NCBI RefSeq assembly: GCF_025753855.1
Contig: NZ_JAOWPT010000016.1
Coordinates: 1-64,000 of the forward strand
Source of the DNA: Mesorhizobium sp. ZC-5
GTDB lineage: Bacteria > Pseudomonadota > Alphaproteobacteria > Rhizobiales > Rhizobiaceae
Direction of reading: 5' to 3'
DNA: 64,000 nt
Positions 6,406-53,284 of the stretch are shown here, one piece after another. Under the pieces are notes generated by a model. The model was not told the origin of the DNA and ran no database searches. It saw only the letters and a program-made list of their open reading frames with translations. Positions within the stretch are counted from its first letter, which is position 1. Each line of letters opens with the position of its first letter. The position numbers were made by a program, and so were the translations under genes.

Positions 6406-7683
6406 GTGTTTCACGCGCTTAAACCTGTTTTGAAAGCCGACTGTTCTGCCGGGCAGAGTGGCGAAGCTATCCCGTTCGAGACGGCGGTAGCCAAAGCCAT
6501 CGCGCTCGCCAAACCTGTTCGATACAGGGAAACGGTTTCGCTTGCCGGAGCATTGGGGCGGGTTTGCGCGGCCGATATACACTCGCCCATTCCGCTGCCT
6601 CCGTTCGACAATTCGGCCATGGACGGGTTTGCCGTTCGAACGGCGGATTTCGAGAGGGAAGGGCCTTGGAGCTTCCCTGTGGCTGAACGGGTGGTCGCCG
6701 GCGACGTACGCGCTCTTGAGAACCTCGACCCACGAATTGCACTTCGAATATTCACGGGAGCGCCCGTTCCGCCGAGCTTCGACGCTGTGGTCATGCAAGA
6801 GCACTGCGAGCAAATTGGCGATGTCGTGACGATATGCGAGCGGCCCCGTCGTGGCCGTCACATCCGTCTTGCTGGCGAGGACGTCGGCGTCGACATGGAA
6901 CTGGTAAGGCGGGGCAGGGGCCTATCAGCTAGGGATCTAACCTTGTTGGCAGCGGTGGGGATCGTCGACGTCCAGGTGCTTCGAAAGATCCGGATAGGAC
7001 TGCTCTCGACCGGAACCGAATTGAAAAACCCGGGTGAACCCCTCGAACACGGTCAGATTTACAACTCCAATCAGATCATGCTCAGTTCGTTGTTGGCGGG
7101 CTGTCCTTGGGCAGAGATCGTCGACTTCGGCATGGTCCCTGACAGGCTAGGTCTCCTCACGGACGTTGTCGCTCGCGCCGTCACGTCCTGTGACGCCTTG
7201 GTTACCAGAGGCGGGGTCTCGGCGGGCGAGGAAGACCATATGGTGGCGGCCGTTCAGGCTCATGGTGCCGACCTTGACGTCCTCAAGGTGGCGATGCGGC
7301 CGGGCAAGCCACTGAAAGTCGGAAGGATCGGGAACACGGTTTTTGCCGGGTTGCCGGGCAATCCGAACGCGGCGCTGATGGCGTTCCGGCAGATTGTCCT
7401 GCCCGCCCTGCGAAAGTTGGCCGGCCTTACAGAAACCCAGCCACAGTGGTTCTCGGCGGTGGCTGGCTTCAACCACAAAAAGGGGCAAGGCCGAACCGAG
7501 TTTGTGGCTGTCCGCATTTCCGGCCGCACCGAAACGGGTGAACCTGTGCTTGAGATGCTTGAACGTGGATCCCCGGCCAGTTTCATGGCCATTGCGCTGG
7601 CAGACGGGATTGCACTCCTGCCGCCTGAGGCCGCCGAAATCACAAACAGAATGCCGCTACGCTACGAGCCGTTTGGGGCCTAG
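6406..7683 (+). CDS. moeA: Molybdopterin molybdenumtransferase MoeA
   Basis: A 425-residue protein starting with GTG at 6406 behind an excellent AAGGGAGGAG. It shows the MoeA hallmarks: PLPPFDNSAMDGFAVR near residue 65, the GLLSTGTEL strand, and RGGVSAGEEDH with GLPGNPNA in the MoCF-like domain, then a C-terminal beta-domain. It inserts molybdate into molybdopterin in the cytoplasm. It is downstream of the cytochrome gene in the same direction, so it probably shares the sigma-54-type promoter. No other molybdenum-cofactor gene is in the window, so this is likely an accessory copy. Confidence 0.95.
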   Translation: MFHALKPVLKADCSAGQSGEAIPFETAVAKAIALAKPVRYRETVSLAGALGRVCAADIHSPIPLPPFDNSAMDGFAVRTADFEREGPWSFPVAERVVAGDVRALENLDPRIALRIFTGAPVPPSFDAVVMQEHCEQIGDVVTICERPRRGRHIRLAGEDVGVDMELVRRGRGLSARDLTLLAAVGIVDVQVLRKIRIGLLSTGTELKNPGEPLEHGQIYNSNQIMLSSLLAGCPWAEIVDFGMVPDRLGLLTDVVARAVTSCDALVTRGGVSAGEEDHMVAAVQAHGADLDVLKVAMRPGKPLKVGRIGNTVFAGLPGNPNAALMAFRQIVLPALRKLAGLTETQPQWFSAVAGFNHKKGQGRTEFVAVRISGRTETGEPVLEMLERGSPASFMAIALADGIALLPPEAAEITNRMPLRYEPFGA

Positions 7684-7698
7684 CATTTGGCGAGCCTG

Positions 7699-8036
7699 CA
7701 GGGAAGGTCAGCCTGCCCGCCGCAAATCCTGATGCCGCGCCCGAGCTGCGATGAGCAGGCAGGTCTCGTCGCTAAGTCCATCCTGGAAAAGTCGAACCAG
7801 GTCAGAGGCAACGTTCTCGGCTTCTGGAGACCCTGGCTGGATATGGCTCTCTTGGCAAAGCTGGTCGAAAACCGACTTCAGACTTTCCAAGTCGCTCGGA
7901 TAGAGGGCTGGGTCAAGGTTGAGACGATCAATCATCTGGGCCTCCCGCGGGCTGAGATCTTGAACGAAACAAAACGTGGCGACGAGGAACCCGCCGACAG
8001 GCGAAGATGACTCCGCCGAAAGGGATTGTCATCAAA
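7699..8036. repeat. Copy A of a ~340-bp dispersed direct repeat
   Basis: This segment recurs in the same orientation at 47602-47940 with scattered substitutions and a one-base length difference in the G/T run about 65 bases before the small-gene start. Both copies carry the same 75-codon minus-strand ORF. Both end near a gacTCCGCCGAAAGGGATTGTCA-like block followed by a run of seven A. The two copies are 40 kb apart and bracket the first effector, the IetAS-like operon and the hydrogenase genes. Confidence 0.85.
7708..7935 (-). CDS. 75-residue conserved hypothetical protein (copy A)
   Basis: It starts with ATG at 7935 (MIDRLNLDPALYPSDLESLK) five bases after GGGAGG. It is acidic, probably helical, and has no recognised domain. 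A paralogue of identical length at 47608-47835 differs at only about ten positions, mostly conservatively (N/D, I/V), which supports real coding selection. Sequence upstream of the ATG is not frame-conserved between the copies, which fixes the start. Function unknown; each copy sits in the neighbourhood of a C48-protease effector. Confidence 0.65.
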   Translation of the reverse strand: MIDRLNLDPALYPSDLESLKSVFDQLCQESHIQPGSPEAENVASDLVRLFQDGLSDETCLLIAARARHQDLRRAG

Positions 8037-8700
8037 AAAATCATCCACCCTGGATCGGTTGGCACGCTGCGTCGCCATGGCAAGAGCCACCCGAGACTGC
8101 GGCACAGACTGATTATTGCTCAAGCGGCTATTCGCCTTCGTTTATCTAATCCTGAAAGCGGGCAATCGTGCCGCGTAAACGATCAGTTGCCACGCCTGGC
8201 AAGTCTCGGAATGGTGAATGCGGTGCATATTGCCGATCTTCGTCGACGCGTCTGCCTCTGCCGAATGCGAGGCGCGCCAGATTACGGACCGGGACATCCG
8301 ATACGCTTGCTCTGGCTTGGCTGCGGTTAACATTTTTGCTGGGGCATTCGGGAACAAAATCACGTGAGGGGCAGCACGACATCTTCTGCCCAGCCCCCAG
8401 CGCCATCACCGCCGGGGCGTCAAAGCCCGCGAGCCTACATCAGTAAAGGACCAGCGCATTGCAATGTCCTTGTCTCGGCGGGTGCAAGTCAGGTGTATGT
8501 CAGCAACGGAGGCTATGTGCAGGATCAAAGCGCGTCCTCGCCAAGGATGACCGCGCTATGGGCGAAAGATCGATGGTGTCGTCCGTCGTTGAGGGTGACC
8601 CTATTGGATGCATTGGAATGAGCGGAGCGAGGTTGCCGAGGGGCACGTGCGGTTTGTGTTGTCATGCCGCGAACGCGAAGCTTCCAATTAAGTGGTCATC
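8037..8700. other. Non-coding stretch before the giant effector; possible group II intron RNA remnant
   Basis: No credible gene is seen here. The part from about 8450 to 8655 includes GGCGGGTGCAAGTC, a TGGTGTCGTCCGTCGTTGAG segment and GAATGAGCGGAGCGAGG followed by CACGTGCGGTTTG. These resemble pieces of bacterial group II intron RNA seen near RmInt1-type elements. No reverse-transcriptase reading frame follows, so it would be only a 5' remnant. The resemblance is from memory and is weak. No tts box was found in this stretch. Confidence 0.3.
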
Positions 8701-8711
8701 GGAGATGGATA

Positions 8712-11700
8712 GTGACAGGCATTGGCCGAGGCGGGAAGTCGCATATTAGGGATTCGAGAGCCGACAACGCGCGGGGATCGAGCAACTCACGCCCGGAATC
8801 AGGTTTTGCCCCTGGAACAGGCAGCCCATCGTTCGCTTCCATCGTGGCGCGGATGCGCTCTGAGCCTCAACATGAAGGGACGTCCTCCGTTCGCAGCCCG
8901 CCGCTTGCCGATGATGCCGTTCGAGACAGGCCTGCCAGCTCCTCAGTTGCCCCCCCTGTGATCCCTGGGGCTTTGCCGCGTGCGGTTGGGCGTCGTCGTC
9001 CATCTTCCTGGCTGCTGGAGGATGACGCGCCAGCCCCAGAAGAAAGCCCCTGGCATTCCGACGGCGAGCCCTGGCGCGGCGATCAGGCCGCCGGAGGCTC
9101 GCAAGCAGATGGGCGACCACCCCGTCGGCAAACCGTGTCCAACCTGAATGCAGGAGCAGGAAGGTGGCGTACCGATGATGTCTCGGCTCAAGGCAGCCAA
9201 AACGCAATCGCGCAAGAACAACTGAATGCCGCCTTGCATGAGATTAATGACGCCCGCGGCATCGTTCGATTTTCAACTGCGGTGGTGCAGCATGATAAGG
9301 CGCTGCAAAGAGCGGACGGCCCGAACCACGCGATATTTCTGAAAAAGGCGGCCGTCCGGTTCACGCGTGAATTGCTCCCAAACTTGGAGCAAGATATCGA
9401 CGCCTGGAAATCATGGGGGTATGCCACAACATGCAACGCAGTGAGCCGGGAGGCTGGAGGGCAGGAGGGTAAAGAAGCCTGCAGAGCCATGGCAGCTCGG
9501 GTGGCGCAGCTTGATCATGCGCTAATCAGCCAAGTCGACCCCAAGGCGCTTTCGCTCTTGTCATCATCGTTTGGCCGGCATTCCCCGATAGCGGAATGCC
9601 GCAATGGCATGATCAGAATCGCCAAAGTCTGCCGCGACGACAGAAGCATACTTCAAGAACTCAACAGTCAGAGCCTGGCGCTGCTGGTGAACGGTTTCAG
9701 CAAGTGGCCGGAGGATTGTCATGGCGCCATAGTTGCAATCGCCCGTGAGGTCCATCACCGCGCCGACCAGCTCTCTCGATCTAAACCGCAGGAATTGTCG
9801 ACGTTGGTGAACGGCCTCAGTAAATGGCCGCAAGAGGAGAACACGCGCCGAGCCGCGCTCGCAATCGCCCGTGAGGTCCTTCGCCGCACCAATCAGCTCT
9901 CTGGTTTTAATCCGCAGGAATTGGCGAACCTGGTGAACGGCTTCGCCAAATGGCCGGACGACTGTCGCCCCGCCATAGTTGCTATCGCCATCGAGATCAT
10001 TCACCGCCCCGGCCGCCCCGATGCGCGGCTCGCTGCGTCTACTTCGCAAGGATTGGCGCACCTGGTAAACGGTTTCAGCAAGTGGCCGGAGGATTGTCGT
10101 GGCGCCATAGTTGCAATCGCCCGTGAGGTCGGCCGCCGCGCCGGTCGTGCCGATGTCCGGCTGTCTGATTTTACTCGGCAGGATCTGGCGACCCTGGTGA
10201 ACGGTTTCAGCAAGTGGCCGCAGGACTGTCGCGGCGCCACAGTTGCAATCGCCCGTGAGGTCCATCACCGCGCCGACCAGCTGCCCCGTTTTAATGCGCA
10301 GGAATTGTCGACGTTGGTGAACGGCCTCAGTAAATGGCCGCAAGCGGAAGAGTGTCGCCAAGCCGCAGTCGTTATCGGCGGCGAGCTGCTTCGTCGCGAC
10401 CGGCTCTCTGATTTCAGCATTCAGAATCTTGCGATCCTGCTGAACGGCTTGGCCAAATGGCCGCAGGACTGTCGCGGCGCCATAGTTGCGATCGCCGGTG
10501 AGGTCGGCCGCCACGCCGGTCATGCCGATGTCCCGCTGTCTGGTTTTGTTTCGCAGGATCTGGCAACCCTGGTGAATGGCATTAGCAAGTGGCCGGAAGA
10601 GGCTGAGTGTCGCAAGGCCATAGCCGCGATCGCCGGTGAGGTTAGTCGGCGCGCCGACCAGCTGTCTGGTTTTAGCCCGCAGGTTTTGGCGACGCTGGTA
10701 AACGGCTTCGGCAAGTGGCCGGAAGCGGGGGATTGTCGCCGCGCCACCGCCGAAATCGCCGCTGAGGTCCATCGCCGCGCCACTGCCGAAATCGCCGGTG
10801 AGGTCCATCACCGCGCCGACCAGCTGCCCGGTTTTAATGCGCAGGAATTGTCGACGTTGGTGAACGGCTTCAGTAAATGGCCGCAAGAGGAGAACACGCG
10901 TCACGCCGCGCTCGCGATCGCCGGTGAGGTGCTTCGCCGCGCTAACAAGCTATCTGGCATTACTCCCCAGAACCTGTCGAACCTTGTGAACGGTTTCAGC
11001 AAATGGCCGGAACAGGCGGATTGTCGCGAGGCAACAGGCGCGATCGCCAGGGAGGTCCGCCGCCGCGCCGGCCGGCTCTCTGGCTTTAATCCGCAGGACA
11101 TGGCGAACCTGGTGAACGGTTTCAGCAAGTGGCCGCATGTGGAGAGCTCGCGCGATGCCACTGTCGTGATCGCCGATGAGGTCTGTCGCTGCGACGACCA
11201 GCTCTCTGGTTTCATTCCACAGGACTTGGCGACCTTGGTCAACGGCTTGAGCAAGTGGCCGGAAGAGGCGGAGTGTCGCGAGGCTATAGCCACGATCTCC
11301 GGTGAGGTCCTCCGCCGCGCCAACCAGCTCCCTGGTTTTAATCTGCAGAACCTGGCGAACCTGGTCAACGGCTTCAGCAAATGGCTCGACGGGACCCACT
11401 GTCGCGAAGCCACGGTCGCGATCGCCGGTGAGATGCTTCGCCGCGCCGACCAACTCTCTGAATTTACTCCCCAGGACATGGCGAACCTGTCAAACGGGTT
11501 CAGCAAGTGGCCGGAAGAGGCGGCGTGCCATCAGGCGATAATTGACATCGCGCACAGACTCGGCTCGGCAAGCCTCCGATTCGGAGTTTTTACCACAGCT
11601 GCGCTTGGCACTATCGCCAATGATTTGGCGCGGGGCGTCATGAAGGGAGAGGACGCCGGAGAGATTAATGAGACCGCTCTGCTGAAGGACCGGCTGCACA

Positions 11701-14700
11701 AGCTCGCCCACCACCTTCACTATGCCACTGATCGCCTGGAGCAGGCCAACGCTCTGACGATCACCAACATTTTCAAAGCGCTGGCGAAGGCCCGGCTGGT
11801 TGACGATCTCGGGTTGCTCGCACGCACGGGGTTGGATCGCCTTCAGGAACTGCATCGAGCGCCGGGATTTGCCGCCGAGAATAACCTGGAAACCGTGGGT
11901 AATCTCTGCGCCGCTCTGCTGCCGCTGGCGCGCAGCCCGCACAAGCAGCTGCGCTGGCACCGCAGGCAGGCACTCAACCTGCTCAACGATATCCAACCCG
12001 TTGTGGAGCAAAAGATCGAGGCGCACCTCAACGCAAGCGATGCCGAACGGGCCCGTGGACCGTGCTCGAGCCGTTGTCCCGCCCTGTCGATCTATCAAGT
12101 GTTGAAGACCCGTGCGGTCCTCGAGAGACTCTATAGACGCCCCTATGTCGAGGGCGACAGGTTCGTTTTGCGGAACAGGCAGCAGAAGTTGCAGCGGGAG
12201 ACCAGAGGCATCCTGGGCCGCACCCGCGATCTTATCGAGCGCGATCTTTCCAACATGAGCTGGAACGTGATCGCGGAAATCGAGGCCGATAACCCGCTGG
12301 ATGCGGTAGATTCATTCCTGGAGCAGAATGCGGCAACCGTCCACGCCCAGCATCCTGCATCGGTCTTCGACGTGCATCAGGTGTTGCGAACCATGGATCA
12401 CGAGCCCAGACCGCCGCAGGGTGACGCGGGACTGATGCAGTTGCCGGTGGTGGACATGCAGGGGCGACCAGTGGCCACGGAGGCCGAGACACGATATTCG
12501 ATTTTTCATCGCCTGACCTCGGGGGCGGTGAAGGTGGTCGCGGTGCAACTGCCAGGCAAGCCCAGCACATTCATGCTGACGCGCACGCTCACCGTCGAGG
12601 GTGTGCCGTACCGGATGGACCTGTTTGGCGGCAGCAAGTTGAAGCCGCCGAGATTGACGCTGGCGCAGATCGCGTCGCGTCAGCCAGGCGGGCGACTCGA
12701 GCCGTCCGGGGGGAAGCTGCTGGCCATTCCTTATAGTGACACGGCAGCGGGCACGGACTTCGAGAGGCTGTCGCGCGCCTGGGCTCCGTTCAAGGAGGCC
12801 TATTATTACACGCAGCGCCGGGGGTTTGCCGCGCCACCGGCCATCCAGGGTCTGGGGCCTCACGACTACGCCGTGGAAGGCGCCTTCAAACTGTTGCTGC
12901 TGCCGGACCGCCCGGCCAATGAACAGCATCCCTTCAAGCTGACCGGAAAGGCAGGTCCGATCGCCCTGCAGCCGCATGACGGCTGCGGCTTCATCAAGGC
13001 CTCGCTGGCCGCGCTCATGCCAGCTGTTCGCCGGGCCGGTCCCCGGAACGGCTCCGATCGGATGGCTGCCTTTGGTGAGGGAAGGAGATCGTCCTTTCCT
13101 GCCTCGGCACTGCAACATTATCCGCGCAGCGAACTGGTGGCGGATGAGGCGCGCGAGAAGGCCAGGACCTGGCTCGAGAGCCAGCAAGGGCGCGCGTTGA
13201 CGTCCGAAGAGCTGTTTCGCACCGTGACGACCGGACATATCGACGGTCCCGGCGCGGTCGCCGTGCCGTCCAGTGATGGCCGCGTCCACGTGCCGACGCT
13301 CAAGAGCGAGACGTTGACGGGCAGGGACGGCGTGCTGATCGGCCGCTCGCCCTATGACAAGCCGAACCTGCGCCCGTTTGCCGCCGGGCAGGTCAGGTCG
13401 GCGGTTGACGGGGACCCGACGGCAGGGTTCCTGGATCAGTGCGTGGCCATCCAATACAGCTTTAATGTCGCCCAGAAGTCGGGGGAGAAATTGGCCGCCG
13501 CCGATCCGACCTTCTTTGCCAAAGGCATTCTGATCGTGGTCCCCGACGAGATGTGGCCGGCCGACTATGCCGAGCGTGGGCTGGTGATGTCGGCCGAGGA
13601 CGTCAAGAGCCATTCGAGCTGGACCACGAGCAAGGACCGGGTCACGGTGGACACCTCGCTCGACTGCGTCGGCATCCTGCAGGCGACGGAGGTGTTTGCT
13701 CCGGGGTCGCTGGTTGCCGTGCCGACCGGTGAACAGAAAAAACTTGACGGCGACTTCGACGGCGACACCGTCATCATACTCGGCGACCGGCCGCGGCTTT
13801 ATGAGCATGTGCGCGAGTTCGATCAAAAGGAGCAGGCGCGCGGCCTGCGCTCGCTCAAGCCGCCGAAGTCGCACACTCCGGCCATCGACGGCGAGCGTTA
13901 CCAGTTCAGCCGCGCCAGCCAGATCCTGGCTGCCACGCAGAACGTCCTGGAAACCTATACCAGCCTGCAGCGAAACTTTCTGGCGCAGCCCCATGAGGCA
14001 CGACAATGGTTTGCCGAGCGTGCCATCTTTGGCACCTACGAGGGCGTCAACCCCGAGCTCAGGCACGGCCTTCGTGAGCTGTTAGACCAGGAACAGGCGA
14101 GCCGGCAGGATATCCAGGACAAACTCGACACTGCGAGACACGAGATCGAGGTTGCCAGACATCCGGTCGCCCGCGAAATGGCCGCTCTGCTCATTTCCGC
14201 CCTGGAGGCATGGGCGGTCAAGCCGGATGAGCAACGCCGGCCCGAAACAGTCGAAAGCGTGAACGACGCAAACCCAGGGCTCAGCGCTGCGCTGTGCGCC
14301 CTGTTCCCGGATCTGGCTGAGGCCTACCCGGCAACTCCCCAGCCACGCGAGCTCGTCCAGCTTTTGCTCAACCACTGTCCTGCGCGCATCGATCCCCGCC
14401 CGGATGGCTACAATCCCGACGACCTCGTCGAAAGCGCAAACAATCTCCTGAGCCTCGGCGTCAAGGTCGGCACCGACGCCTATAAATCCGACACTGGCGC
14501 CCGCCTGTTCATGAAGAAGAGCGAGGAGCTGCAGCGGCTGCTGCATCAGACGCCGGGCTTGAAGGCCGTGCCCTACGTCAAGGGTCTGGCTGCGACCCTC
14601 AACCGGGGCAGGCTCGATGTCGATGCGACCCTGGAGGACCTGAAGGACAATCCCACGCTGACGGCTTCAATCATGGAGACCTCGATCAAGCTCGCTGCGG

Positions 14701-16778
14701 AGCAGGGCATTTTGCCCAAACCGTCTGGCCTGCACCTTGGCACCGCGGACGGCGCGACGATGACGCTGAGCCGCGAGGAGGCATCCCGGCGCGCCAACAT
14801 TGAGGCTGCCCGCGCCAGGGAGGAAGAAGAGGCAATCACCGCGGCAGCGCTCGACGTGGCCACCAGCCTGGCAACAGCTGGCATCCAGGTGAACATGCCT
14901 CATATGAAGCTCCGCTTGAAGTCGGCAGCCTCCATGACAGCCCATCTCACCGGCATAAGCGCCCCGAGCAGCAGCGATGTACAGCTGCTCAGCAGCGCCG
15001 TGCGCCATGTCTTCGAAGTCCCTGACAAGGATTTTACGCGCGCCTTCAAGGCAGCCATGCTGGCCTTCGATGAGCGGGGCTACTCCGAACTCCAGACCAC
15101 CAACTGGTTCAGAACGCGGAATCCCAGTTTTGTCGGCATCCAGAGCGTGCTCACCACGCCGGATGGTTACCGCTTCCAGCTGGAGTTCCACACGCCAGGC
15201 AGTTACCAGGCCAAGATTGACAATCACGATACCTACAAGGAGCTTTTCGCGCTTCAGCAGCAAGCAGGCGGGGATGGACTGGAAAAGGCCAGTGAACTCG
15301 TCCAGCGCGTGCGAGGAGCCTGCAAGCAAGTTGCGACCCCCGATGGCGCCATGGACATCCCCCACTGGGGAACCGAAGAGGGGACAACGGGCGGAACCAG
15401 TCTCGCCAGCTTTGGGGTGCGCGCGGCCGAACAGCCAGGACCACCCCAGACCGCCAGGTCACCGGTCGCAAAGGAGATCTTTGCCGCCCTCAATGGACGG
15501 CCGGTCGTGCTGGTTGGCATGCCGAGTGCCGGAAAATCCAGCATCGGCCCGGCTCTCGCCAGGCGGCTGCGGCTGCCCTTCGTCGATACCGACAAGATAA
15601 TCCAGAAGCAGGCCGGCACCTCGATAACGCAGATTTTCGCTACCAATGGCGAGGCGTATTTCAGGGACATGGAGGCAGGTGTGATCGCAGATTTGCTCCA
15701 GAAAGGGCCTGCCGTGATCGCGACCGGTGGCGGCGCGTTCATGCGTGAGCAGAGCCGTCACCTGATCGGCGAGAAAGCGGTCTCGATCTGGCTCGACACC
15801 AGGCTCGACGTGATCGAAAAACGCACCAGGAACGATACCAGCCGCCCGCTGCTGCAAGGCCCCAACCCGGAGCAGAAGATCGCCAGACTGTTGAGCGAGC
15901 GCAGGCCGTTTTATGCACAAGCCGATATCACCGTCGTCCCACCCCACCAACAAGATAGAAAGAACGTCGATCCATGCGTGAGCGCCCTGCACGCCCACCT
16001 GTGCCCCGAGGCGGGCGTGGACCGCGGCCCTGCCAGACAGGAAGCCGATCGGATACATGTGCCAGGAGCGCAAACTGTCAACGGTGAGCCCACCTCCACG
16101 GCGCGGGAGCCGGACGGGCGCATTCTTCCCACCCCTCACGCTCGAGTTGCCCAGACGGATGAACCGGCCTCTGGCTCGGGCAGCGCACCGCAGGATCGGC
16201 CGGCGCTCGGCCCCACCGATTGGCTGACCGACGCCCATATCACTGCGGATTACGGGCTCCTGGGCCAGGAGTTGCAGGGACGTTCTCCGGATCTGGCTGC
16301 CCGGACGCGCCTCGTGGATCCCCTCATATCATATCAACTGCGCTTGATCCCCGAGCGCGATGCACTCGGCGAATTCCAGCGCATAGTCCATAATCAGAAT
16401 GAGGAGGATACGGCCGACTTCCTGTTCCTGCCAGTGAACGATGGCCGTGCTGGCGTTCCTGATAGTGGCAGCCACTGGTCGCTGCTGCTCGTTGATCGCC
16501 GCGACCGGGAAAACCCGGTCGGCTATCACTACGACTCGCTGGGAGAGTACCACCGCCCCATTGCAACGGAGTTCGCAGCAAGGCTGGGCGCCCGCCTGCG
16601 GCCAGTGCGCATGGCCAAACAGCACAACGGTTATGATTGCGGCGTCTTCATGCTGGAGGCCACGCGGGAGCTGGCTCGACGGTTGGCGCAAGAACCGCGG
16701 CTGCGGCGCGAGTCCCTGCACCTCGACAATCTGGTCGCCGATCGCCAGGCACTCCAGGAGCGGCTCGCGCGAATTTGA
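8712..16778 (+). CDS. Giant SKWP-repeat / DFDGD / shikimate-kinase-like / C48 protease effector
   Basis: Start chosen as GTG 8712, which has GGAG nine bases upstream; an ATG at 8664 in frame has no ribosome-binding site. From 8712 the protein is 2,688 residues. Residues 1-130 are Ser/Pro/Arg-rich and disordered, as in secreted effectors. Residues ~320-935 hold 15 helical repeats of about 42 residues with the core LVNGFSKWP, the hallmark of the SKWP (RipS-type) type III effectors. Residues 1681-1685 read DFDGD inside a beta-rich region. Residues ~2262-2412 form a shikimate-kinase-like domain (P-loop GMPSAGKSS, VDTDK, GGGAF). Residues ~2500-2688 are a C48 cysteine protease with His2588, Asp2608 and Cys2643 (NGYDCGVF). 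A rhizobial relative (Mesorhizobium loti Mlr6361) is a type III effector, from memory. Secretion and host targets are inferred. Confidence 0.85.
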   Translation: MTGIGRGGKSHIRDSRADNARGSSNSRPESGFAPGTGSPSFASIVARMRSEPQHEGTSSVRSPPLADDAVRDRPASSSVAPPVIPGALPRAVGRRRPSSWLLEDDAPAPEESPWHSDGEPWRGDQAAGGSQADGRPPRRQTVSNLNAGAGRWRTDDVSAQGSQNAIAQEQLNAALHEINDARGIVRFSTAVVQHDKALQRADGPNHAIFLKKAAVRFTRELLPNLEQDIDAWKSWGYATTCNAVSREAGGQEGKEACRAMAARVAQLDHALISQVDPKALSLLSSSFGRHSPIAECRNGMIRIAKVCRDDRSILQELNSQSLALLVNGFSKWPEDCHGAIVAIAREVHHRADQLSRSKPQELSTLVNGLSKWPQEENTRRAALAIAREVLRRTNQLSGFNPQELANLVNGFAKWPDDCRPAIVAIAIEIIHRPGRPDARLAASTSQGLAHLVNGFSKWPEDCRGAIVAIAREVGRRAGRADVRLSDFTRQDLATLVNGFSKWPQDCRGATVAIAREVHHRADQLPRFNAQELSTLVNGLSKWPQAEECRQAAVVIGGELLRRDRLSDFSIQNLAILLNGLAKWPQDCRGAIVAIAGEVGRHAGHADVPLSGFVSQDLATLVNGISKWPEEAECRKAIAAIAGEVSRRADQLSGFSPQVLATLVNGFGKWPEAGDCRRATAEIAAEVHRRATAEIAGEVHHRADQLPGFNAQELSTLVNGFSKWPQEENTRHAALAIAGEVLRRANKLSGITPQNLSNLVNGFSKWPEQADCREATGAIAREVRRRAGRLSGFNPQDMANLVNGFSKWPHVESSRDATVVIADEVCRCDDQLSGFIPQDLATLVNGLSKWPEEAECREAIATISGEVLRRANQLPGFNLQNLANLVNGFSKWLDGTHCREATVAIAGEMLRRADQLSEFTPQDMANLSNGFSKWPEEAACHQAIIDIAHRLGSASLRFGVFTTAALGTIANDLARGVMKGEDAGEINETALLKDRLHKLAHHLHYATDRLEQANALTITNIFKALAKARLVDDLGLLARTGLDRLQELHRAPGFAAENNLETVGNLCAALLPLARSPHKQLRWHRRQALNLLNDIQPVVEQKIEAHLNASDAERARGPCSSRCPALSIYQVLKTRAVLERLYRRPYVEGDRFVLRNRQQKLQRETRGILGRTRDLIERDLSNMSWNVIAEIEADNPLDAVDSFLEQNAATVHAQHPASVFDVHQVLRTMDHEPRPPQGDAGLMQLPVVDMQGRPVATEAETRYSIFHRLTSGAVKVVAVQLPGKPSTFMLTRTLTVEGVPYRMDLFGGSKLKPPRLTLAQIASRQPGGRLEPSGGKLLAIPYSDTAAGTDFERLSRAWAPFKEAYYYTQRRGFAAPPAIQGLGPHDYAVEGAFKLLLLPDRPANEQHPFKLTGKAGPIALQPHDGCGFIKASLAALMPAVRRAGPRNGSDRMAAFGEGRRSSFPASALQHYPRSELVADEAREKARTWLESQQGRALTSEELFRTVTTGHIDGPGAVAVPSSDGRVHVPTLKSETLTGRDGVLIGRSPYDKPNLRPFAAGQVRSAVDGDPTAGFLDQCVAIQYSFNVAQKSGEKLAAADPTFFAKGILIVVPDEMWPADYAERGLVMSAEDVKSHSSWTTSKDRVTVDTSLDCVGILQATEVFAPGSLVAVPTGEQKKLDGDFDGDTVIILGDRPRLYEHVREFDQKEQARGLRSLKPPKSHTPAIDGERYQFSRASQILAATQNVLETYTSLQRNFLAQPHEARQWFAERAIFGTYEGVNPELRHGLRELLDQEQASRQDIQDKLDTARHEIEVARHPVAREMAALLISALEAWAVKPDEQRRPETVESVNDANPGLSAALCALFPDLAEAYPATPQPRELVQLLLNHCPARIDPRPDGYNPDDLVESANNLLSLGVKVGTDAYKSDTGARLFMKKSEELQRLLHQTPGLKAVPYVKGLAATLNRGRLDVDATLEDLKDNPTLTASIMETSIKLAAEQGILPKPSGLHLGTADGATMTLSREEASRRANIEAARAREEEEAITAAALDVATSLATAGIQVNMPHMKLRLKSAASMTAHLTGISAPSSSDVQLLSSAVRHVFEVPDKDFTRAFKAAMLAFDERGYSELQTTNWFRTRNPSFVGIQSVLTTPDGYRFQLEFHTPGSYQAKIDNHDTYKELFALQQQAGGDGLEKASELVQRVRGACKQVATPDGAMDIPHWGTEEGTTGGTSLASFGVRAAEQPGPPQTARSPVAKEIFAALNGRPVVLVGMPSAGKSSIGPALARRLRLPFVDTDKIIQKQAGTSITQIFATNGEAYFRDMEAGVIADLLQKGPAVIATGGGAFMREQSRHLIGEKAVSIWLDTRLDVIEKRTRNDTSRPLLQGPNPEQKIARLLSERRPFYAQADITVVPPHQQDRKNVDPCVSALHAHLCPEAGVDRGPARQEADRIHVPGAQTVNGEPTSTAREPDGRILPTPHARVAQTDEPASGSGSAPQDRPALGPTDWLTDAHITADYGLLGQELQGRSPDLAARTRLVDPLISYQLRLIPERDALGEFQRIVHNQNEEDTADFLFLPVNDGRAGVPDSGSHWSLLLVDRRDRENPVGYHYDSLGEYHRPIATEFAARLGARLRPVRMAKQHNGYDCGVFMLEATRELARRLAQEPRLRRESLHLDNLVADRQALQERLARI

Positions 16779-16851
16779 TGACGCGCTCGGGCTGATGGAG
16801 CTGGCTGGGGCGCTCTCGCCGGCGGGGGATTGGATGTTTCGACGGATCGGC

Positions 16852-17160
16852 GTGCTGTTGCTAGCCGAGAGCGGGCGTACCGGCGAGGTTCGATATGTCG
16901 GAGAGATATCCTCCGATAGTGCGCCAGTACGCTGCCTCGTCCGTAAGCTCGGACGCCCGGGTGTACAATCGAAATTTTGCTATGAGGCTGGACCCACCGG
17001 ATACGGTCTGAAGCGGGAGATCGAGGCGCTTGGCTATGAGTGCGCCGTGATTGCTCCTTCTCTGATCCCGCGCAAGCCTGGCGATCGGGTCAAGACGAAC
17101 CTCCGCGATGCCGAGAAACTTGCCCGGCTGTTCCGTGCCGGTGAGCTGACGGAGATCTAG
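16852..17160 (+). pseudogene. IS110-family transposase fragment
   Basis: The frame reads GRTGEVRYVGEISSDSAPVR, then FCYEAGPTGYGL, then IAPSLIPRKPGDRVKTN and DAEKLARLFRAGELTEI, followed at once by a stop. These are the consecutive N-terminal DEDD-transposase motifs of the IS110 family. The first Asp motif and the whole C-terminal Ser region are missing. The fragment starts within about 80 bases of the effector stop codon, so insertion and decay happened right behind it. Confidence 0.85.
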
Positions 17161-17379: not shown

Positions 17380-17411
17380 ATCAGATGATTGCCAATTTGC
17401 AATTATCTGAT
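17380..17411. promoter_or_regulatory. 13-bp inverted repeat, probable operator of the XRE gene
   Basis: ATCAGATGATTGC is repeated as the reverse complement GCAATTATCTGAT after a six-base spacer, with 12 of 13 positions paired. It ends 12 bases before the ATG at 17424. A TCTGATATT motif in its right edge also occurs just upstream at 17362-17370. Such a palindrome next to a HTH_XRE gene is the usual layout for autorepression; that role is inferred. Confidence 0.65.
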
Positions 17412-17423
17412 ATTCTTCTCCTT

Positions 17424-17780
17424 ATGTCCGTGATTGAATTCAATCCAATTGAGATCGCCACGCAGATCGACTCGGAGCGTCGGAAACGCAAGCTATCTTG
17501 CGCAGATTTGGCGCGTCAGTCGGGTGTGCATGTAAGCCAAGTCAGTCGAGTATGCCGTGGCCGTTTCCGCACGGTTAGTCAGAATACGATGCGAATTTGC
17601 AACGCGCTTGGCCTTGCAGTCAATCCCGACAGTTCCGCTAGCTGCCAGCATGGGAGGTTGCTCGCTGAGGCCATAATTGCTGTCTGGGACAAAACGCCAT
17701 CTGACGCGCAGAGATTGCTGCGATTTATTGAAAGTGTAGCGGCATTGCGGGAGAGCACCCATGGGCATTCGGATCAGTGA
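17424..17780 (+). CDS. XRE-family helix-turn-helix regulator
   Basis: A 118-residue protein (from ATG 17424). A frame starting at 17385 would overlap the palindrome, so the internal ATG is preferred, although its ribosome-binding site is weak. Residues ~18-65 form a lambda-repressor-like HTH (LSCADLARQSGVHVSQVSRV with SQNTMRICNALGL). The C-terminal half is helical. It lies 106 bases before the AAA ATPase gene in the same direction and probably controls the operon. Confidence 0.8.
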   Translation: MSVIEFNPIEIATQIDSERRKRKLSCADLARQSGVHVSQVSRVCRGRFRTVSQNTMRICNALGLAVNPDSSASCQHGRLLAEAIIAVWDKTPSDAQRLLRFIESVAALRESTHGHSDQ

Positions 17781-17886
17781 TTTCTTAAAAATTCTGTATC
17801 GACGAGCTTGGCCCTATCCGATGCAGGCCTAATATGGATAATTGGGCTAGGGCAATCTACGCTGCCAAGGCTGGCGGAGTGAGAAA

Positions 17887-18918
17887 ATGCGAAGCGATCT
17901 GATCTTAAATCTTGCCCACGCAGGCATTGCCGGAGACGGCCCAGGACTGAAGCGGACGGTTCGTGCGTTGGCTGAAGAAGCGGCCGCTAAACAGCAGCAT
18001 ACACTCGCAAAACGCTTTTCAAGTCTCATTGAGGGACGTGAAATGGGGTATGTCGGACAAAGCGCGCGCTTCTCAGTGCCGGACAATGTTCGCGGGCTGT
18101 TTCACCAGATCGAGCCGAAGCGCCGTTTTCGGGACCTGCTGTTGCCAACGGGCGTCGTGAGCGAACTGAATGATCTCGTGGAAGAGCACCGCCAACTCGA
18201 ACTGCTGCGCTCCTACTCCATAGAACCTCGGCACACCATGCTGCTCCAGGGGGCTCCAGGCACAGGTAAGACAAGTTTGGCCGAGGCGGTCGCAAGCGAA
18301 CTCGGCTTGACCCTGTTCGTTGTGCGGTACGATTCCATAGTTGGCAGCTATCTCGGTGAGACCGCAGCAAAGCTGAACGATCTCCTGGAATATGCGGCCA
18401 CAACTCCCTGCGTTCTTTTCTTTGACGAGTTCGACGCGATCGGCAAGGAGAGGGGGGATATCCATGAGACTGGGGAGATCAAGCGCGTCGTAAGTTCGCT
18501 GCTGCTGCAATTGGATTCGTTGCCACCCCACGTTTTTGTTATCTGTGCGACGAATCACCCGGAGCTTCTCGATCGGGCCGTCTGGAGGAGGTTCGAGATT
18601 CATTTCGAGCTGCCTCTGCCCAGCAAGGCGCAGGTCCAAAGATGGCTTAAGTCGTTTATTCGCGACATTGGGGCGGGTGAGGACGTTCCTGTTGAGAAAC
18701 TTGTTGCTGCATTTGCCGGAGTAAACTACTCAGATCTTGAGCTGTTCAGCCTTGACATAAAGCGTCGGCTTATTTTGACGAAAGATCCAAGTTATTCGAA
18801 AGTATTTGACCAGACAGTGCGGAAGTGGAGTGCGCGCCTGCGTGCTGCGAGGAGAGTCAATAAAGTAAATGGCAGCCAATCGACCGATTCTCCTGATCTC
18901 TTCCACCAGCACGATTAA
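17887..18918 (+). CDS. ietA: AAA+ ATPase, IetA-like
   Basis: A 343-residue single-domain AAA+ ATPase. Walker A is GAPGTGKTS (about residue 122), Walker B is LFFDEFDAIG (about 180), sensor 1 lies in VICATNHPELLD and the arginine-finger region is AVWRRFEIHF. ATG at 17887 has GGAG seven bases upstream. The C-terminus overlaps the subtilase gene by 50 bases. An AAA ATPase paired with a subtilisin-like protease is the architecture of IetAS, described on the Agrobacterium Ti plasmid as a toxin-antitoxin stability and incompatibility system and also reported among phage-defence loci. In that system the ATPase is the antitoxin. Orthology is inferred from architecture. Confidence 0.8.
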   Translation: MRSDLILNLAHAGIAGDGPGLKRTVRALAEEAAAKQQHTLAKRFSSLIEGREMGYVGQSARFSVPDNVRGLFHQIEPKRRFRDLLLPTGVVSELNDLVEEHRQLELLRSYSIEPRHTMLLQGAPGTGKTSLAEAVASELGLTLFVVRYDSIVGSYLGETAAKLNDLLEYAATTPCVLFFDEFDAIGKERGDIHETGEIKRVVSSLLLQLDSLPPHVFVICATNHPELLDRAVWRRFEIHFELPLPSKAQVQRWLKSFIRDIGAGEDVPVEKLVAAFAGVNYSDLELFSLDIKRRLILTKDPSYSKVFDQTVRKWSARLRAARRVNKVNGSQSTDSPDLFHQHD

Positions 18919-21475
18919 GCGGATACCCGGCACGGCAGACGGCCGCCAAAGGCCTTCCTATTCTCCAGAGCAGCAGCGAGGACGCCTTGGTGGCCGTTTC
19001 GAACGCATCCGCACGGTTTTGAGCGGCATCGCCGAGCAGGGCGGCTTTACATCGGACGCCACCGCTATTGCGCCTGATCGCGCGCTCGTCTTCGAACTGA
19101 AATCACCCCTTAAGGATTTCGAGCGCGAAGCTCGCCGTATAGGACTCACCTGGCTCACCGAAGAAATTGAGGATTCCGACGATCCGTTTGCGGAGGAAGA
19201 GGGGGAGGAAGACGGTCCGGAAGACGCAGCAACTCCCATCGAGGACACCCGCCTATATGTTTCGATGCCCAGCGTGGAATCCCTAGCGGAACTGTTGAAG
19301 TACTGGGACCTGTACCGCAGCGATGCAAGCGCTCCCTATGGATTCGGGGAATGGTGGAAAATATTCGACCGCTTGGAGAACATAAGGCCGTGGGGTGTGG
19401 AAGATCGCCTGGATGACCGGACGCTTGCGTATCTGCGAAAGCGTCTCGCAAGTCAGCCCAATGCAAATGTACTTCTGGAGCTTGATATCTGGTTCTCGTC
19501 GGATCCGCTGGTGCGGCAAGCACGGCAGCTTGCGATATCGCAACTTGTGCAAGCCCACTCCGGTACTGTCCAGGATGCATTTGACCTCGCGGAAACAGCA
19601 TATCACGCACTTCTGGTTGAAATGCCTGCGGTGCGCGTTCGTGAGATGACAGAACGCAGCGGTTTGCTCGCGCAAGCCCATCAGATCATGAGCATTAGGC
19701 CGCAATCGTTCGGAATCCAGCCAATTGTCGAGGAACGGGCCCCCCTTCCGATAGAGGATCTGCGGTATCTGGATCCAACGGACGCGCGCGCTCCAGTCGC
19801 TGCTCTGCTTGACGGTTTCCCTATCGAGAACCACGAACTGCTGGCGGACCGCATAGACGTGTTTCCGGTCGACATCGATCCGAGCATGGCCTCGATACGT
19901 CATCGCCATCACGGAACTCAGATGGCATCGCTCATTCTCCACGGAGATTTGGACGGTGGGGAACCAAGTCTCGGCAGGAGGCTGCTCGTCGTTCCGGTTC
20001 TTGCAACCGACCCAAATGGAGGCAACGAGCGAACCCCGCCCCTTCGTCTGCCAATCGGCGTCATTTACCGAGCAGTCCAGGCGATCAAGGAAGGGCTGCC
20101 GGGCCAACCTGCGCCCGGGCAGGAAGTGGTCGTGATAAATCACTCCCTTGGAGACGCAAACGCACCTTTCATCTCTCGTCCGAGCCATTGGGCAAAGCTG
20201 CTCGATCATCTCGCAGGCAAGCACAACCTGCTGTTCGTGGTGAGCGCGGGCAACGTCTATGAAGGCTTTGAGGTTCCTGATTTCACCGACATTCCCGCCT
20301 TTAGAGCTGCCAGGCCACAGCAACGACGCGACGCGTTGCTTACGGCCTTGGAAAGGTGGAAGAACCACAGGACGATGCTCAGCCCTGCGGAATCGATCAA
20401 TGCTCTCACCGTGGGTGCGCTTCACCATGACTGCTCGTCAGAACCATTTCCGCCAGGCGCCACCGATCCGTACGGTTCCTTCCGAATGGCGAATGTTGGG
20501 TCTGGGCTAGGCCTCGGGGTCGCCAGGTCTGTCAAACCAGATCTGGTATTTCCGGGCGGACGCCAAGCTGTCCGCCCGTCAGCCGGACCGCCGTTTAGAG
20601 TGTCAGGACAAGAGGTGGCGCAAGTCGGTCAACGGGCTGCGGCTCCCGACAAATTCGGAGCGCGGCGCGACCTGACGCAACGCTCTACTGGAACCAGCAA
20701 TGCCGCCGCATTGGCGACACGCGCAGCGATTCAGATAGTCGATGCTATCGAAGATATCATTCCACCGGCTTCGCCGGGGTTGTTGAGGTGCAAGCCGGCT
20801 ATCGTCAAGTGCCTTGTTGCCCATGGGTGCGGATGGGGCGAAATCGGCCGACATCTTGAAGGAATTTGTCCTCCCACGGAAGGGAATGCCTGGAGCCGTC
20901 GCCGATCCAATATTGCTCGGTTCATAGGATTCGGTGAAACGCAAGTCGACCGGATAATCGAGGGTTCTTCAAAGCGCGTCACAATGCTGGGCTTTGCCGA
21001 GATCAAACACGGCAGGAGAGACGTTTTTCGAATCCCGCTGCCAAGCGAGCTTGCGAGTAGAACGGACCTCCGACGCATCACTGCCACGCTGGCATGGGTT
21101 GCACCGATACGGCCAAAGGCACGCAACTATCGCGCCATTAAGCTTGAACTTACTGGACCGGATGGAGGCTTGAATCTTTGGTCCGGAGTGGCGCGCAAGG
21201 ACGTGCTGCAGCCGCCTTCAAGCACCGCTTCGAAGGGGACCCTTATCCATTCCATCTACGAGGGGGCTAGGGCAATTCCATTTGCCGTTGGCGAGGACCT
21301 CGAGATCGGTATTCAGTGTCAAGCGTCGGTATCCTCATTCAATCAGATAGAAGTCCCGTACGCTCTCGCAGTCACGATCGAAGTCGCCGACACGATCCGG
21401 TCAGATATCTATCAAGAAGCTCGTGCTGCCATTGCAAGCAGGGTACGTGCTCCACGTGTGAGGTTGAGGCAATGA
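18869..21475 (+). CDS. ietS: Subtilisin-like (S8) serine protease, IetS-like
   Basis: An 868-residue cytoplasmic subtilase with no signal peptide. The catalytic triad is visible: Asp in AALLDGFPIENHELL (about residue 313), His in RHHGTQMASL (about 350) and Ser in STGTSNAAALATR (about 610); Asn of the oxyanion hole is in VVSAGNVYEG. Residues ~90-125 are very acidic (EEEGEEDGPED). The N-terminal ~280 residues and the C-terminal ~230 are additional domains that I cannot name. It overlaps ietA by 50 bases and the next gene by four, so all three are translationally coupled. It is the expected toxin or effector of the pair. Confidence 0.82.
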   Translation: MAANRPILLISSTSTIKRIPGTADGRQRPSYSPEQQRGRLGGRFERIRTVLSGIAEQGGFTSDATAIAPDRALVFELKSPLKDFEREARRIGLTWLTEEIEDSDDPFAEEEGEEDGPEDAATPIEDTRLYVSMPSVESLAELLKYWDLYRSDASAPYGFGEWWKIFDRLENIRPWGVEDRLDDRTLAYLRKRLASQPNANVLLELDIWFSSDPLVRQARQLAISQLVQAHSGTVQDAFDLAETAYHALLVEMPAVRVREMTERSGLLAQAHQIMSIRPQSFGIQPIVEERAPLPIEDLRYLDPTDARAPVAALLDGFPIENHELLADRIDVFPVDIDPSMASIRHRHHGTQMASLILHGDLDGGEPSLGRRLLVVPVLATDPNGGNERTPPLRLPIGVIYRAVQAIKEGLPGQPAPGQEVVVINHSLGDANAPFISRPSHWAKLLDHLAGKHNLLFVVSAGNVYEGFEVPDFTDIPAFRAARPQQRRDALLTALERWKNHRTMLSPAESINALTVGALHHDCSSEPFPPGATDPYGSFRMANVGSGLGLGVARSVKPDLVFPGGRQAVRPSAGPPFRVSGQEVAQVGQRAAAPDKFGARRDLTQRSTGTSNAAALATRAAIQIVDAIEDIIPPASPGLLRCKPAIVKCLVAHGCGWGEIGRHLEGICPPTEGNAWSRRRSNIARFIGFGETQVDRIIEGSSKRVTMLGFAEIKHGRRDVFRIPLPSELASRTDLRRITATLAWVAPIRPKARNYRAIKLELTGPDGGLNLWSGVARKDVLQPPSSTASKGTLIHSIYEGARAIPFAVGEDLEIGIQCQASVSSFNQIEVPYALAVTIEVADTIRSDIYQEARAAIASRVRAPRVRLRQ

Positions 21476-22341
21476 CAGTGTTTTCTCCGGATTTGAGCTT
21501 GGGTAGCGAGACGCCCAACAACATCGCGGTGTATCTGTATGAAATTGAAGATCACGCTGCGGCGATGGCGATTTCCGGGAGCGGACCCGGGGGGCAGGGA
21601 TATATCTTCGATAGATATGTCTATCTTGGAACGGATGCGGTGTACGGGTTTCTCGAGCCTGGTTCGACAGATATTGTCCCCGTAAGCAGCGTCGAGGCGG
21701 ACGAAAGTCTCAAGGATGCCAAACTGAAGGTTACCCTGGATCGCTTCTTTGTCGAAAACTATCCGGGCGGAGGTGAGCACCGTATTCTCTGCGAGTTCGC
21801 CGGAAAGAACCAGGCTCAGGGTGTGGTCGAGGAACTTCGGTTCGCGACCACCTGTGTTGCGAGAGACCAGCAAGGGTCTTCAGTGTCGTCTCTGCCTGTC
21901 TTCTTAGGTGTAACAGCCGGGCAGAACGGGATTAGTTTTGAGGGGCGAACGGTTAACGTCCGTAGCTCGTATGATGACACTGTTCTCGAAGTGCTCGGAA
22001 GCGAAACGTTCAAGCAGGGGCTTTCCTTGCTCGATGCTGTTCAGCCTGCGATTAGGCCCTTCGCAAAACTGGCTGAAGGAGTCGTCAAAATGGCGGCCAG
22101 CCGAAACAAGAATCGGCAGGTTCACACCTTCTCGCTTGGTCTGGATTTTGGATCTAATTCGACGTCGGCAAGGCTGCGCTGCGGTTCTTACATTGTTGTG
22201 CAGTCGGGCTCCGTCTACAACTGGGACTGGTCCCTTTACAAATGGGATGCCAATACCAATCGGATTGTGGCCCGCATGGATAGTGGCGTGGCACCGCCAG
22301 CGTGGAACTACATGGTATTTGGCGTATCGCGGTACAGTTGA
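21472..22341 (+). CDS. Unknown third gene of the IetAS-like operon
   Basis: A 289-residue protein whose ATG overlaps the subtilase stop codon (ATGA). No known domain was recognised. The middle segment (LKVTLDRFFVENYPGGGEHR, residues ~80-100, then ILCEFAGKNQAQG) looks beta-rich and may be C2-like or carbohydrate-binding-like. Residues ~190-290 are also beta-rich (GLDFGSNSTSARLRCGSYIVVQ). There is no signal peptide or membrane segment. Because IetAS is described as two genes, this may be a target-recognition, inhibitor or second effector subunit; that is inference from the coupling only. Confidence 0.75.
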   Translation: MTVFSPDLSLGSETPNNIAVYLYEIEDHAAAMAISGSGPGGQGYIFDRYVYLGTDAVYGFLEPGSTDIVPVSSVEADESLKDAKLKVTLDRFFVENYPGGGEHRILCEFAGKNQAQGVVEELRFATTCVARDQQGSSVSSLPVFLGVTAGQNGISFEGRTVNVRSSYDDTVLEVLGSETFKQGLSLLDAVQPAIRPFAKLAEGVVKMAASRNKNRQVHTFSLGLDFGSNSTSARLRCGSYIVVQSGSVYNWDWSLYKWDANTNRIVARMDSGVAPPAWNYMVFGVSRYS

Positions 22342-36232: not shown

Positions 36233-38023
36233 TCATCTCATCTGCACTTTTGCCATTTCCTGCCCGTCCGGGCTCATGACATGCGTGGAGCATGCAAGGC
36301 ACGGATCGAAGGAATGGATTATCCGGAGTATTTCCAGCGGCTGGGTGGGATCTGACATCGGGGTATCCACCAACGAGGCTTCGAACGCGCCGATACCGCC
36401 TTTCGGATCGCGAGGGCTGGCGTTCCAGGTGGTCGGCACGACGCATTGGTAGTTGTCGATCTTGCCGTCCTTGATCTTGATCCAGTGGGCGAGCGCGCCG
36501 CGCGGCGCTTCGGTGAAGCCGACGCCCTTGACTTCCTTCGGCCAGGTCTGCGGTTTCCATTTGTCGACGAAAGCGGTCGCGCTGTCGCCAGCCTTGATAT
36601 TGGCGACCAGCTTGTCGAAGAAATAGCGCATCTGGCGGCCCGCCCATTCGGAGTCTAGGGCGCGCGCCGCGGTGCGGCCGAGCGTGGAGAAGAGCGCCGA
36701 CATCGGAAGACCGAGATCTTTCAGCACCTTCTCGATCGGCTCCTTGAATTCAGGCTTGCCCTGCGCATAGCCGACGACCCAGCGGGCGAGGGGGCCTACC
36801 TCCATGGCGTGTCCGCGCCAGCGCGGCGCCTTGATCCATGAATATTTGCCACCTTCGTCCAGTTCCTGGATGTTGGTCTTGGTGCCCTTGGCATTGGGGC
36901 CTAGTTCGTAATGCGGCTCGGTGACGCCATCCCAGGGGTGCAGGCCCTTGGCCTCGTGCGGATACTTGTACCAGGAATGGATGACGAATTCCTGGATTTG
37001 CTCCGGATCGGCGAGGTCGATCGGCAGAATGTCGGCAAGATTACCGTTGATGATTGCGCCGCGCGGCAGTTTCAGGCTCGCTTCCGAATAATCGTTGGCA
37101 TGTTCCGGCACATCGCCATAGGCGAGCACGTTCTTGCCCGAAAGGCCGCCGCCAAAGAGCCAGTCCCTGTAGAATGAGCCGATCGCCATGACGTCGGGCA
37201 CATAGACCTTTTCGTTGAACTCGATCAGCTGGTCTATGATCGACGACACATGGTTTAGGCGCTCGATGTTGATCGCACCGACCGCGCCGGTTCCATCGAT
37301 GTTGATGGGACAGGGCAGGCCGCCGACCAGCCAGTTCGGATGTGGATTCTTGCCGCCGAAGATCGTATGGATCTTGACGATCTCCTTCTGGAAATCCAGC
37401 GCCTCGAGATAGTGCGCGACGGCCATCAGGTTGGCTTCCGGCGGCAGCTTATAGGAGGCGTTACCCCAATAGCCGTTCTTGAATGGACCGAGTTGGCCGG
37501 ATTCAACGAATTTCTTGAGCCGGGTCTGGATGTCCTTGAAATAGCCGGGCGAGGAGAGCGCCCAGTCGGACACCGACTGGGCCAGCTGAGACGTCGCCTT
37601 CGGATCGGCCTTGAGCGCGCAGACGACGTCCACCCAGTCAAGCGCATGCAGGTGATAGAAATGCACCACGTGGTCATGCACCTGCAGCGCAAGCTGCATC
37701 AGGTTGCGGATCGAATTGGCGTTTTCCGGGATGGTGATGCCAAGGGCATTCTCGACCGCGCGCACGGAGGTCAGCGCATGCGCGCCCGTGCAGACGCCGC
37801 AGATCCGCTCGGTGAAGGCCCAGGCGTCGCGCGGATCGCGGTTCTTGAGGATGACTTCGATGCCGCGCCACATCGTGCCAGTGGACACAGCGTTGCGGAT
37901 GACGTTGTTGGCGTCGACATTGACCTCGACCCGCATATGGCCTTCGATACGGGTGACCGGATCGACCACGATGCGTTTGCCGGAATTGTCGAGCGTGAAG
38001 CCGTTGGGCGTTTGGATTGACAT
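36233..38023 (-). CDS. hupL: HupL, large subunit of uptake [NiFe] hydrogenase
   Basis: A 596-residue catalytic subunit. The two nickel-iron motifs are complete: [10 protein letters not shown] (about residue 72) and DPCLACSTH (about 576). A 15-residue tail after the final His is removed by HupD. The protein oxidises H2 on the periplasmic side. It follows hupS by 21 bases and overlaps nothing. Confidence 0.98.
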
Positions 38024-53010: not shown

Positions 53011-53097
53011 GGCGTCGAACGTCTCCCGCCAAGCCGGATCCGTTGGATTGAAGTTAGGTAGGTCCAAGCTGGTCTCACGTTTATAGGTCACCGGAGG

Positions 53098-53133
53098 CTC
53101 AAAACTACTCGGGCAAGCTGTCGAGAAGCTGAC
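53098..53133 (-). promoter_or_regulatory. tts box (type III secretion promoter element)
   Basis: On the minus strand GTCAGCTTCTCGACAGCT, then 13 bases later AGTTTTGAG, matches the rhizobial tts-box pattern GTCAGCTTNTCGAAAGCT at all but one position. TtsI binds such boxes to switch on nodulation outer proteins after flavonoid induction. It lies 88 bases before ATG 53010 of the second effector. Confidence 0.85.
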
Positions 53134-53284
53134 AATCCTCGCCGTCTGCAAAGCGTCTCACGAACGCTCGAAGAGAACAGTCTGCGATCCGGTGTGGGCT
53201 GCTCACCCGAGGCCATGGGGATTCTACAACCAGGTTGCCGTTCGGCATCGCGTTGCAGATGCAGGCGCTGTCCATGCTGCTTGA

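Follow-up and report, generated by a model that had tools for sequence, protein, structure and literature searches.

One clade of IetAS-like ATPase-subtilase operons carries a third gene

IetAS, in which an AAA ATPase is paired with a subtilase, is linked to plasmid maintenance and phage defence. For the related SgiAT system of Salmonella Genomic Island 1, the available part of the published account gives the AAA protein the role of antitoxin and the subtilase that of toxin (PMC5006074). Here we analyze a stretch of 64,000 nucleotides (nt) from Mesorhizobium sp. ZC-5 (contig NZ_JAOWPT010000016.1, positions 1 to 64,000 of the forward strand; “the window”), in which an IetAS-like pair, referred to as A and S, is directly followed by a third gene, T. 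T follows one clade of S sequences and is almost certainly a genuine, clade-specific component of IetAS.

The A protein contains a Walker A motif (GAPGTGKTS) and a Walker B motif (FFDEFDAI) in translation and matches the Pfam AAA family (E 1.8e-33), while S matches Peptidase_S8 (E 9.2e-17) and its catalytic Asp, His and Ser are aligned in all 31 of 31 S rows, that of the window included. Both are matched over nearly their full length by PADLOC models, A by IetA (PDLC04232; E 1.1e-125, residues 2-322 of 343) and S by IetS (PDLC04233; E 3.1e-251, residues 1-861 of 868). The narrower NCBIfam equivalogs are a different matter: A reaches 226.7 bits versus a cut-off of 510 for IteA (NF042959), and S 55.1 bits versus 900 for IteS (NF042956). 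The pair is IetAS-like in PADLOC's broad sense but outside the IteA/IteS equivalogs, and because its scores lie so far under the cut-offs it represents a divergent branch. A and S overlap by 50 nt, and the stop codon of S and the start codon of T share the four bases ATGA. A preliminary description of this DNA had called the pair IetAS type, as the PADLOC matches bear out, and its gene order, coordinates, 289-residue third product and four-base overlap are all as it gave them.

Searches that started from T returned five matches among plasmid records, four in a scan of genome contigs, three in 398 genomes of the phylum and eight in 397 genomes of the order; searches that started from S added two loci on viral contigs, one with an intact and one with a broken T, and one further genome. 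In a single-script recount, an intact T lies immediately downstream of A and S in 13 of 13 loci. Four more loci have a broken T, which is frame-shifted in L007 and interrupted by an in-frame stop in L116, with A and S intact in both; G727 retains only the first part of T beside an S in pieces, and L004 holds T fragments with no A or S within ~8 kb. The C part of T (Table 1) was also sought by itself in 299 genomes of the window's phylum at E <=1. In three of the 21 genomes that matched, the hit is a known T gene; in the remaining 18 the matches are short or contain stops, and those that were aligned resembled chance. No further T core was found in the genomes searched. Patterns drawn from T's own sequence found no T in viral contigs, an insensitive search, as the S search there found two. 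In phages, the one T match (E 0.8) is a chance match, and no S was found.

The phylogeny of S gives this association its shape. On a tree of 40 S rows, the 15 rows with T form a single clade with support of 100/100, and none of the 25 other rows has T; an earlier tree of 36 rows, 12 of them with T, supported the clade at 96/100, and a quick tree of 46 rows at 100 by the Shimodaira-Hasegawa-like approximate likelihood ratio test (SH-aLRT). The rows of the 40-row tree were picked from those fetched, leaving out L121, L131 and L134, which the 46-row tree had labelled as lacking T though their sequence stops no more than 7 nt past the aligned S, which makes them uninformative. G727, with its broken S, and G929, with a partial S, are absent from the trees. 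Counting only loci found through S, 12 of 12 intact clade members have T, two of them in broken form.

Ten strong IetS matches (>700 bits) occur in 297 genomes of the order, six with T and four without; T was seen in none of the weaker IetS loci examined, although some weak matches came without a locus. Among 77 plasmid records with an IetS match, T is found in two (tblastn), 385 genomes of the class contributed six further strong S matches without T (one with only ~270 nt downstream), and 99 genomes of one genus hold six strong S genes, three with T and three without. A fresh sample of viral contigs yielded 30 S relatives, and T occurs only with the two closest, at 40% identity, so the rule that T accompanies only the nearest S held there as well; six of the 28 relatives without T extend less than 700 nt beyond the aligned part of S. 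Rows within the clade keep T at S identities down to 37%. G1130 was considered as a counter-example, as its S is 38.0% identical to that of the window and no T lies within 6.6 kb downstream, but on the tree it falls outside the T clade, with rows that lack T. Hence, how similar an S is to that of the window does not, taken alone, sharply predict T. The preliminary description had suggested that the pair with its coupled third gene may be an extended IetAS variant, T being a protein that might sense, target or inhibit. The 13 intact loci and the T clade support the extended variant: T was not found mostly apart from AAA-S8 pairs, the exceptions being the L004 remnant and a cyanobacterial protein that has only the ends of T.

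T is a real gene, because it has relatives at 35-57% identity (alignment A2, nine members) and a low ratio of nonsynonymous to synonymous substitutions (dN/dS), which in the two pairs computed is 0.017 (G034/G076) and 0.09 (G142/G034), similar to A and S. Judging from these ratios, T is under purifying selection. It is also conserved like its partners, with a mean identity of 46.6% compared to 49.9% for A and 45.3% for S, and its distances track theirs (distance-matrix correlation r 0.89 for S-T, p 0.0001, and 0.87 for A-T, next to 0.95 for A-S). With starts chosen by rule, A and S overlap by 41-140 nt in 11 loci, and the S-T junction is a 4-nt overlap in seven of these and a gap of 3-20 nt in the other four. 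Purifying selection on T, and a divergence that parallels that of its partners, lead us to regard T as a fixed component of one IetAS branch. Could T nevertheless be a passenger without a functional tie to ietAS? It is limited to one clade, and two-gene IetAS works elsewhere, as a passenger would lead one to expect. But a passenger would hardly be present in all 15 clade rows across such divergence in S, nor under purifying selection, nor would it stand out from other loci, which have no common downstream gene, and we consider it very improbable. In 12 of 32 loci without T, S is followed within 150 nt by an open reading frame (ORF) of at least 80 amino acids (aa), and these ORFs are all unlike one another; other IetAS clades therefore keep no common third gene.

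Table 1. Positions of the features of the three-gene locus in the window, with the evidence for each.
Feature	Position	Strand	Length	Evidence
ietA-type AAA ATPase gene (A)	17887-18918	+	343 aa	Pfam, PADLOC, motifs in translation
ietS-type subtilase gene (S)	18869-21475	+	868 aa	Pfam, PADLOC, catalytic Asp/His/Ser
Third gene (T)	21472-22341	+	289 aa	No family match; alignment A2; purifying selection (from dN/dS)
Parts of T	Residues ~1-70 (N), ~77-190 (middle), ~200-289 (C)			
XRE-type regulator gene	17424-17780	+	118 aa (131 aa read from 17385)	HTH_26
Imperfect palindrome	17380-17411	none		Candidate XRE operator

The sequence of T offers few leads to its activity. T alone has no match in Pfam, PADLOC, NCBIfam or PHROGs, and nine members searched up to E 10 against the first three gave only chance-level matches of single members; Romo1, DUF5124, a CARF model (0.033), StkA (0.037) and others, each scattered and seen in one member, were dismissed as chance. 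No metallo-beta-lactamase-type nuclease domain was found by Pfam in T or the other eight members, and T matches no Pfam nuclease family. A T profile compared with PDB sequences up to E 10, by sequence search only, gave three matches, none of them a gasdermin; these, a kinesin-like chain (E 0.0081 overall, 0.44 for the best stretch) and two racemases, were likewise put down to chance. We also rejected T as a piece split off S or A, since BLAST gave E 1.9 or worse and S has the same length with T (845-890 aa) and without it (837-894 aa). The maximum of 19-residue hydropathy reaches 1.61 in one of the 11 members and does not exceed 1.23 in the other 10, too low for a plain transmembrane protein, with insertion after cleavage being possible. 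From hydropathy and the family searches, T is predicted to be a soluble, cytoplasmic protein without an enzyme signature.

One way in which such a protein could serve a toxic protease is as an inhibitor or second antidote, restraining IetS together with IetA. T would be made directly after the protease from overlapping genes, and 10 positions in the alignment are special to T-bearing S, two of which (H425 and N611) lie by active-site segments. Against this, L007 and L116 have a broken T beside intact A and S, which suggests that cells can survive S without T and speaks against T as an essential antidote. No inhibitor family was matched in Pfam by the nine T members up to E 10, and the two chance-level matches obtained are neither of them inhibitors. 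In SgiAT, moreover, the AAA protein alone counters the subtilase according to the portion of that study that is accessible (PMC5006074). An inhibitory role for T is thus an unlikely one.

T also has a distant match in cyanobacteria. Its profile matches a 178-aa protein on a plasmid of Tolypothrix (L008) with 63.6 bits for the C part; the N part alone reaches 13.5 bits, compared to 6.7 or less in 2000 shuffles, and the middle part of T is missing. By BLAST, only the C-terminal third of T has a counterpart on three near-identical plasmids of cyanobacteria. In L008 the T-core gene is followed in a row, within 6734-9683, by an EAD10-bearing caspase-family gene and an EAD10-FGE gene, and no relative of A or S was found in the 14-kb stretch. 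The FGE protein matches Pfam EAD10 at E 4e-29 and the caspase protein at E 7e-4, below the Pfam cut-off. EAD10 is counted among the domains that recruit effectors in prokaryotic conflict systems, as far as the available part of the source extends (PMC7159879).

We raise, tentatively and with more doubt than confidence, the possibility that T is the IetAS-linked founding member of a portable partner family that immune proteases (the subtilase here, a caspase in the cyanobacterium) act on or through. The two ends would be the common core, a module shared with the caspase-linked cyanobacterial protein, and the middle part would adapt T to this subtilase. The use of one protease-activated partner family by different protease types, trypsin-like and caspase, has been described for nuclease-protease and caspase-nuclease loci, at least in the accessible text of the report (PMC12799240). 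If T is such a portable partner, it would stand for a novel class of bacterial immune proteins, effectors or adaptors licensed by a protease.

The same modularity could suit a sensor. T might be an infection sensor or trigger that recognizes a component of the invader and releases IetS from IetA; its core recurs beside another protease type, as a shared sensor could, and the IetAS form has the middle part in addition. However, T is conserved to the same degree as its two partners, while proteins that sense invaders directly often evolve more quickly, and two-gene IetAS senses without T. We find this role for T improbable.

The explanation that we prefer, and to which we give about even weight for and against when it is taken as a whole, is a T-bearing three-gene IetAS in which the freed protease cuts T or works through T. 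The comparisons show that T was gained by one IetS clade and retained by all of the members found, diverging together with A and S and usually with overlapping genes. By analogy with SgiAT, A would hold the toxic subtilase in check until infection, a competing element or the loss of A lifts that check, and the subtilase would then act with T. Made next to the protease, T would most likely be cut by it or give it access to its target. In other words, T would be an output or adaptor and not an antidote, and the XRE gene and palindrome upstream would be a local control gained by the window copy.

Several points weigh against this explanation. The broken T genes may be sequencing errors, the clade may have T in common merely because its members inherited one linked operon, and the 10 T-specific positions of S, H425 and N611 included, can be explained by clade history alone. 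The cyanobacterial neighbourhood was seen for one of three near-identical records, and the similarity of the N part is weak. Finally, the SgiAT protease is toxic without a third gene, so T is not needed for toxicity of that kind, to judge from the accessible part of its description (PMC5006074).

Detectors score IetAS as two genes and thereby miss the third gene of a whole clade. The accessible parts of the open-licence literature on IetAS, SgiAT and AAA-subtilase defence yielded no description of a third IetAS gene, and in the same literature we know of no paper that identifies the target of IetS. Should the protease prove to cut or use T, this would provide a first handle on that target, and the sister clades without T offer a clean natural comparison of what a dedicated partner adds to a protease-based immune module.

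The region upstream of A requires separate treatment. An XRE gene, whose product matches HTH_26 (E 4e-07), ends 106 nt before A on the same strand. Two observations make 17424 a likelier start than 17385: the palindrome contains the first ATG, and alignments with the plasmid relatives begin at residue 4-11 of the shorter form. By eye and by one script, the palindrome has 13-nt arms with one mismatch and a 6-nt loop; another repeat analysis gave 16-nt arms, 88% complementary, without a loop. The window has a single occurrence of its pattern and 100 shuffles have none, which for a pattern derived from the palindrome itself shows only non-repetition. It also scores as a terminator-like stem, and neither promoter-like sites (3 vs 2.6 in shuffles) nor terminator-like sites (3 vs 5.6) are in excess in the region. 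Some relatives of the XRE gene (L111) have a TGCAAAT-type palindrome at the start codon that resembles TTGCCAATTTGCAA of the window by eye, while the same script found no comparable repeat in three of six. The palindrome is probably the operator of the XRE gene.

Does the XRE gene belong to the system? It had been taken for the system's own regulator, and a single regulated four-gene system of XRE (with its palindrome), A, S and T would account for its position and strand and for the presence of another small helix-turn-helix (HTH)-like gene there in 9 of 16 T loci. The comparative data run the other way. No XRE relative was found in any of the 16 further loci that hold T or a remnant of it, and its six relatives on plasmids (33-42% identity) are neighbours of NADAR and PfkB genes in stretches that show no ietAS. 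The HTH-like genes, moreover, belong to a different family (BLAST E 0.07 over 20 residues). A four-gene system with this regulator is therefore highly unlikely, and the XRE gene appears to be a local neighbour and not a conserved part of the module. In the plasmid stretches (L110-L115, from Rhizobium, Sinorhizobium, Bosea and Sphingomonas), a PfkB kinase gene, a divergent NADAR gene, ~50 nt and the XRE gene form a cassette around position ~4500, with a HAD hydrolase annotated in three of six. It is followed by a caspase family gene in L115, by a hypothetical gene and a zeta toxin in L111, and by an opposite-strand exonuclease/helicase in L114.

The HTH-like gene (~114-146 aa) precedes ietA in L001, L002, L043-L046, L081, L082 and L155, from the set of 16 T loci with A (all but L004), and overlaps it by four bases in two of them; the XRE gene takes its place in the window. 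The L002 protein weakly resembles YdaS (E 9e-4, below the Pfam cut-off). Among 80 loci longer than 6 kb the family occurs only in eight T loci, a 13-bit match in L153, which lacks T, being doubtful. It is possible that the HTH-like gene is a fourth member of the module.

The T clade is found in alpha- and betaproteobacteria, on plasmids (L006 and L007 among them), prophage-like contigs and chromosomes. Strong S matches occur in 4 of 13 genomes of one genus, and in the window the GC content of the operon (0.54-0.58) is below that of the flanking genes (0.63). Patchy occurrence and carriage on plasmids and prophage-like contigs are consistent with mobile cargo. On the prophage-like contig L117 the neighbours of the three-gene module include tape-measure, tail and CI-like repressor genes, and on L116, also prophage-like, a baseplate and a tail-fibre gene.

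The window holds other genes of interest. A 2704-aa ORF at 8664-16778 combines a shikimate kinase domain (E 1e-43) with a Ulp1-type C48 protease domain at the C terminus (E 1e-09), has repeated motifs of the LVNGFSKWP type, and presumably resembles effectors that plant-associated bacteria inject. Another long ORF, of 1380 aa at 49009-53151 on the minus strand, also has a C48 protease domain at its C terminus (E 1.4e-07). Pfam identifies an IS110-family transposase at 55715-56680; the ORF at 16441-17160, between the effector-like ORF and the operon, resembles a piece of such a transposase by eye but has no Pfam match. The large subunit of a NiFe hydrogenase lies at 36233-38023 on the minus strand (E 5e-232), and the genes between it and the operon resemble hydrogenase accessory genes.

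Among known systems, IetAS as modelled by PDLC04232 and PDLC04233 has both genes, their order, their overlap and near full-length matches in common with the window, which adds T after S, a gene that no PADLOC model matches. SgiAT and the IetAS of pTiC58 likewise combine an AAA protein with a subtilase, but the available part of their description presents a two-gene operon where the window has T (PMC5006074); in this comparison, too, the window pair lies far below the IteA/IteS equivalog cut-offs. The Tolypothrix caspase-EAD10 cassette places a protein with the N and C parts of T before a protease gene, and is unlike the window in the absence of the middle part, in having no A or S match over its 14 kb, and in a different protease fold. 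The partner in canu is a metallo-beta-lactamase-fold nuclease, whereas T has no Pfam nuclease match; in canu and the nuclease-protease pairs, as far as the accessible text of their report shows, one partner family occurs with different protease types in antiphage loci (PMC12799240).

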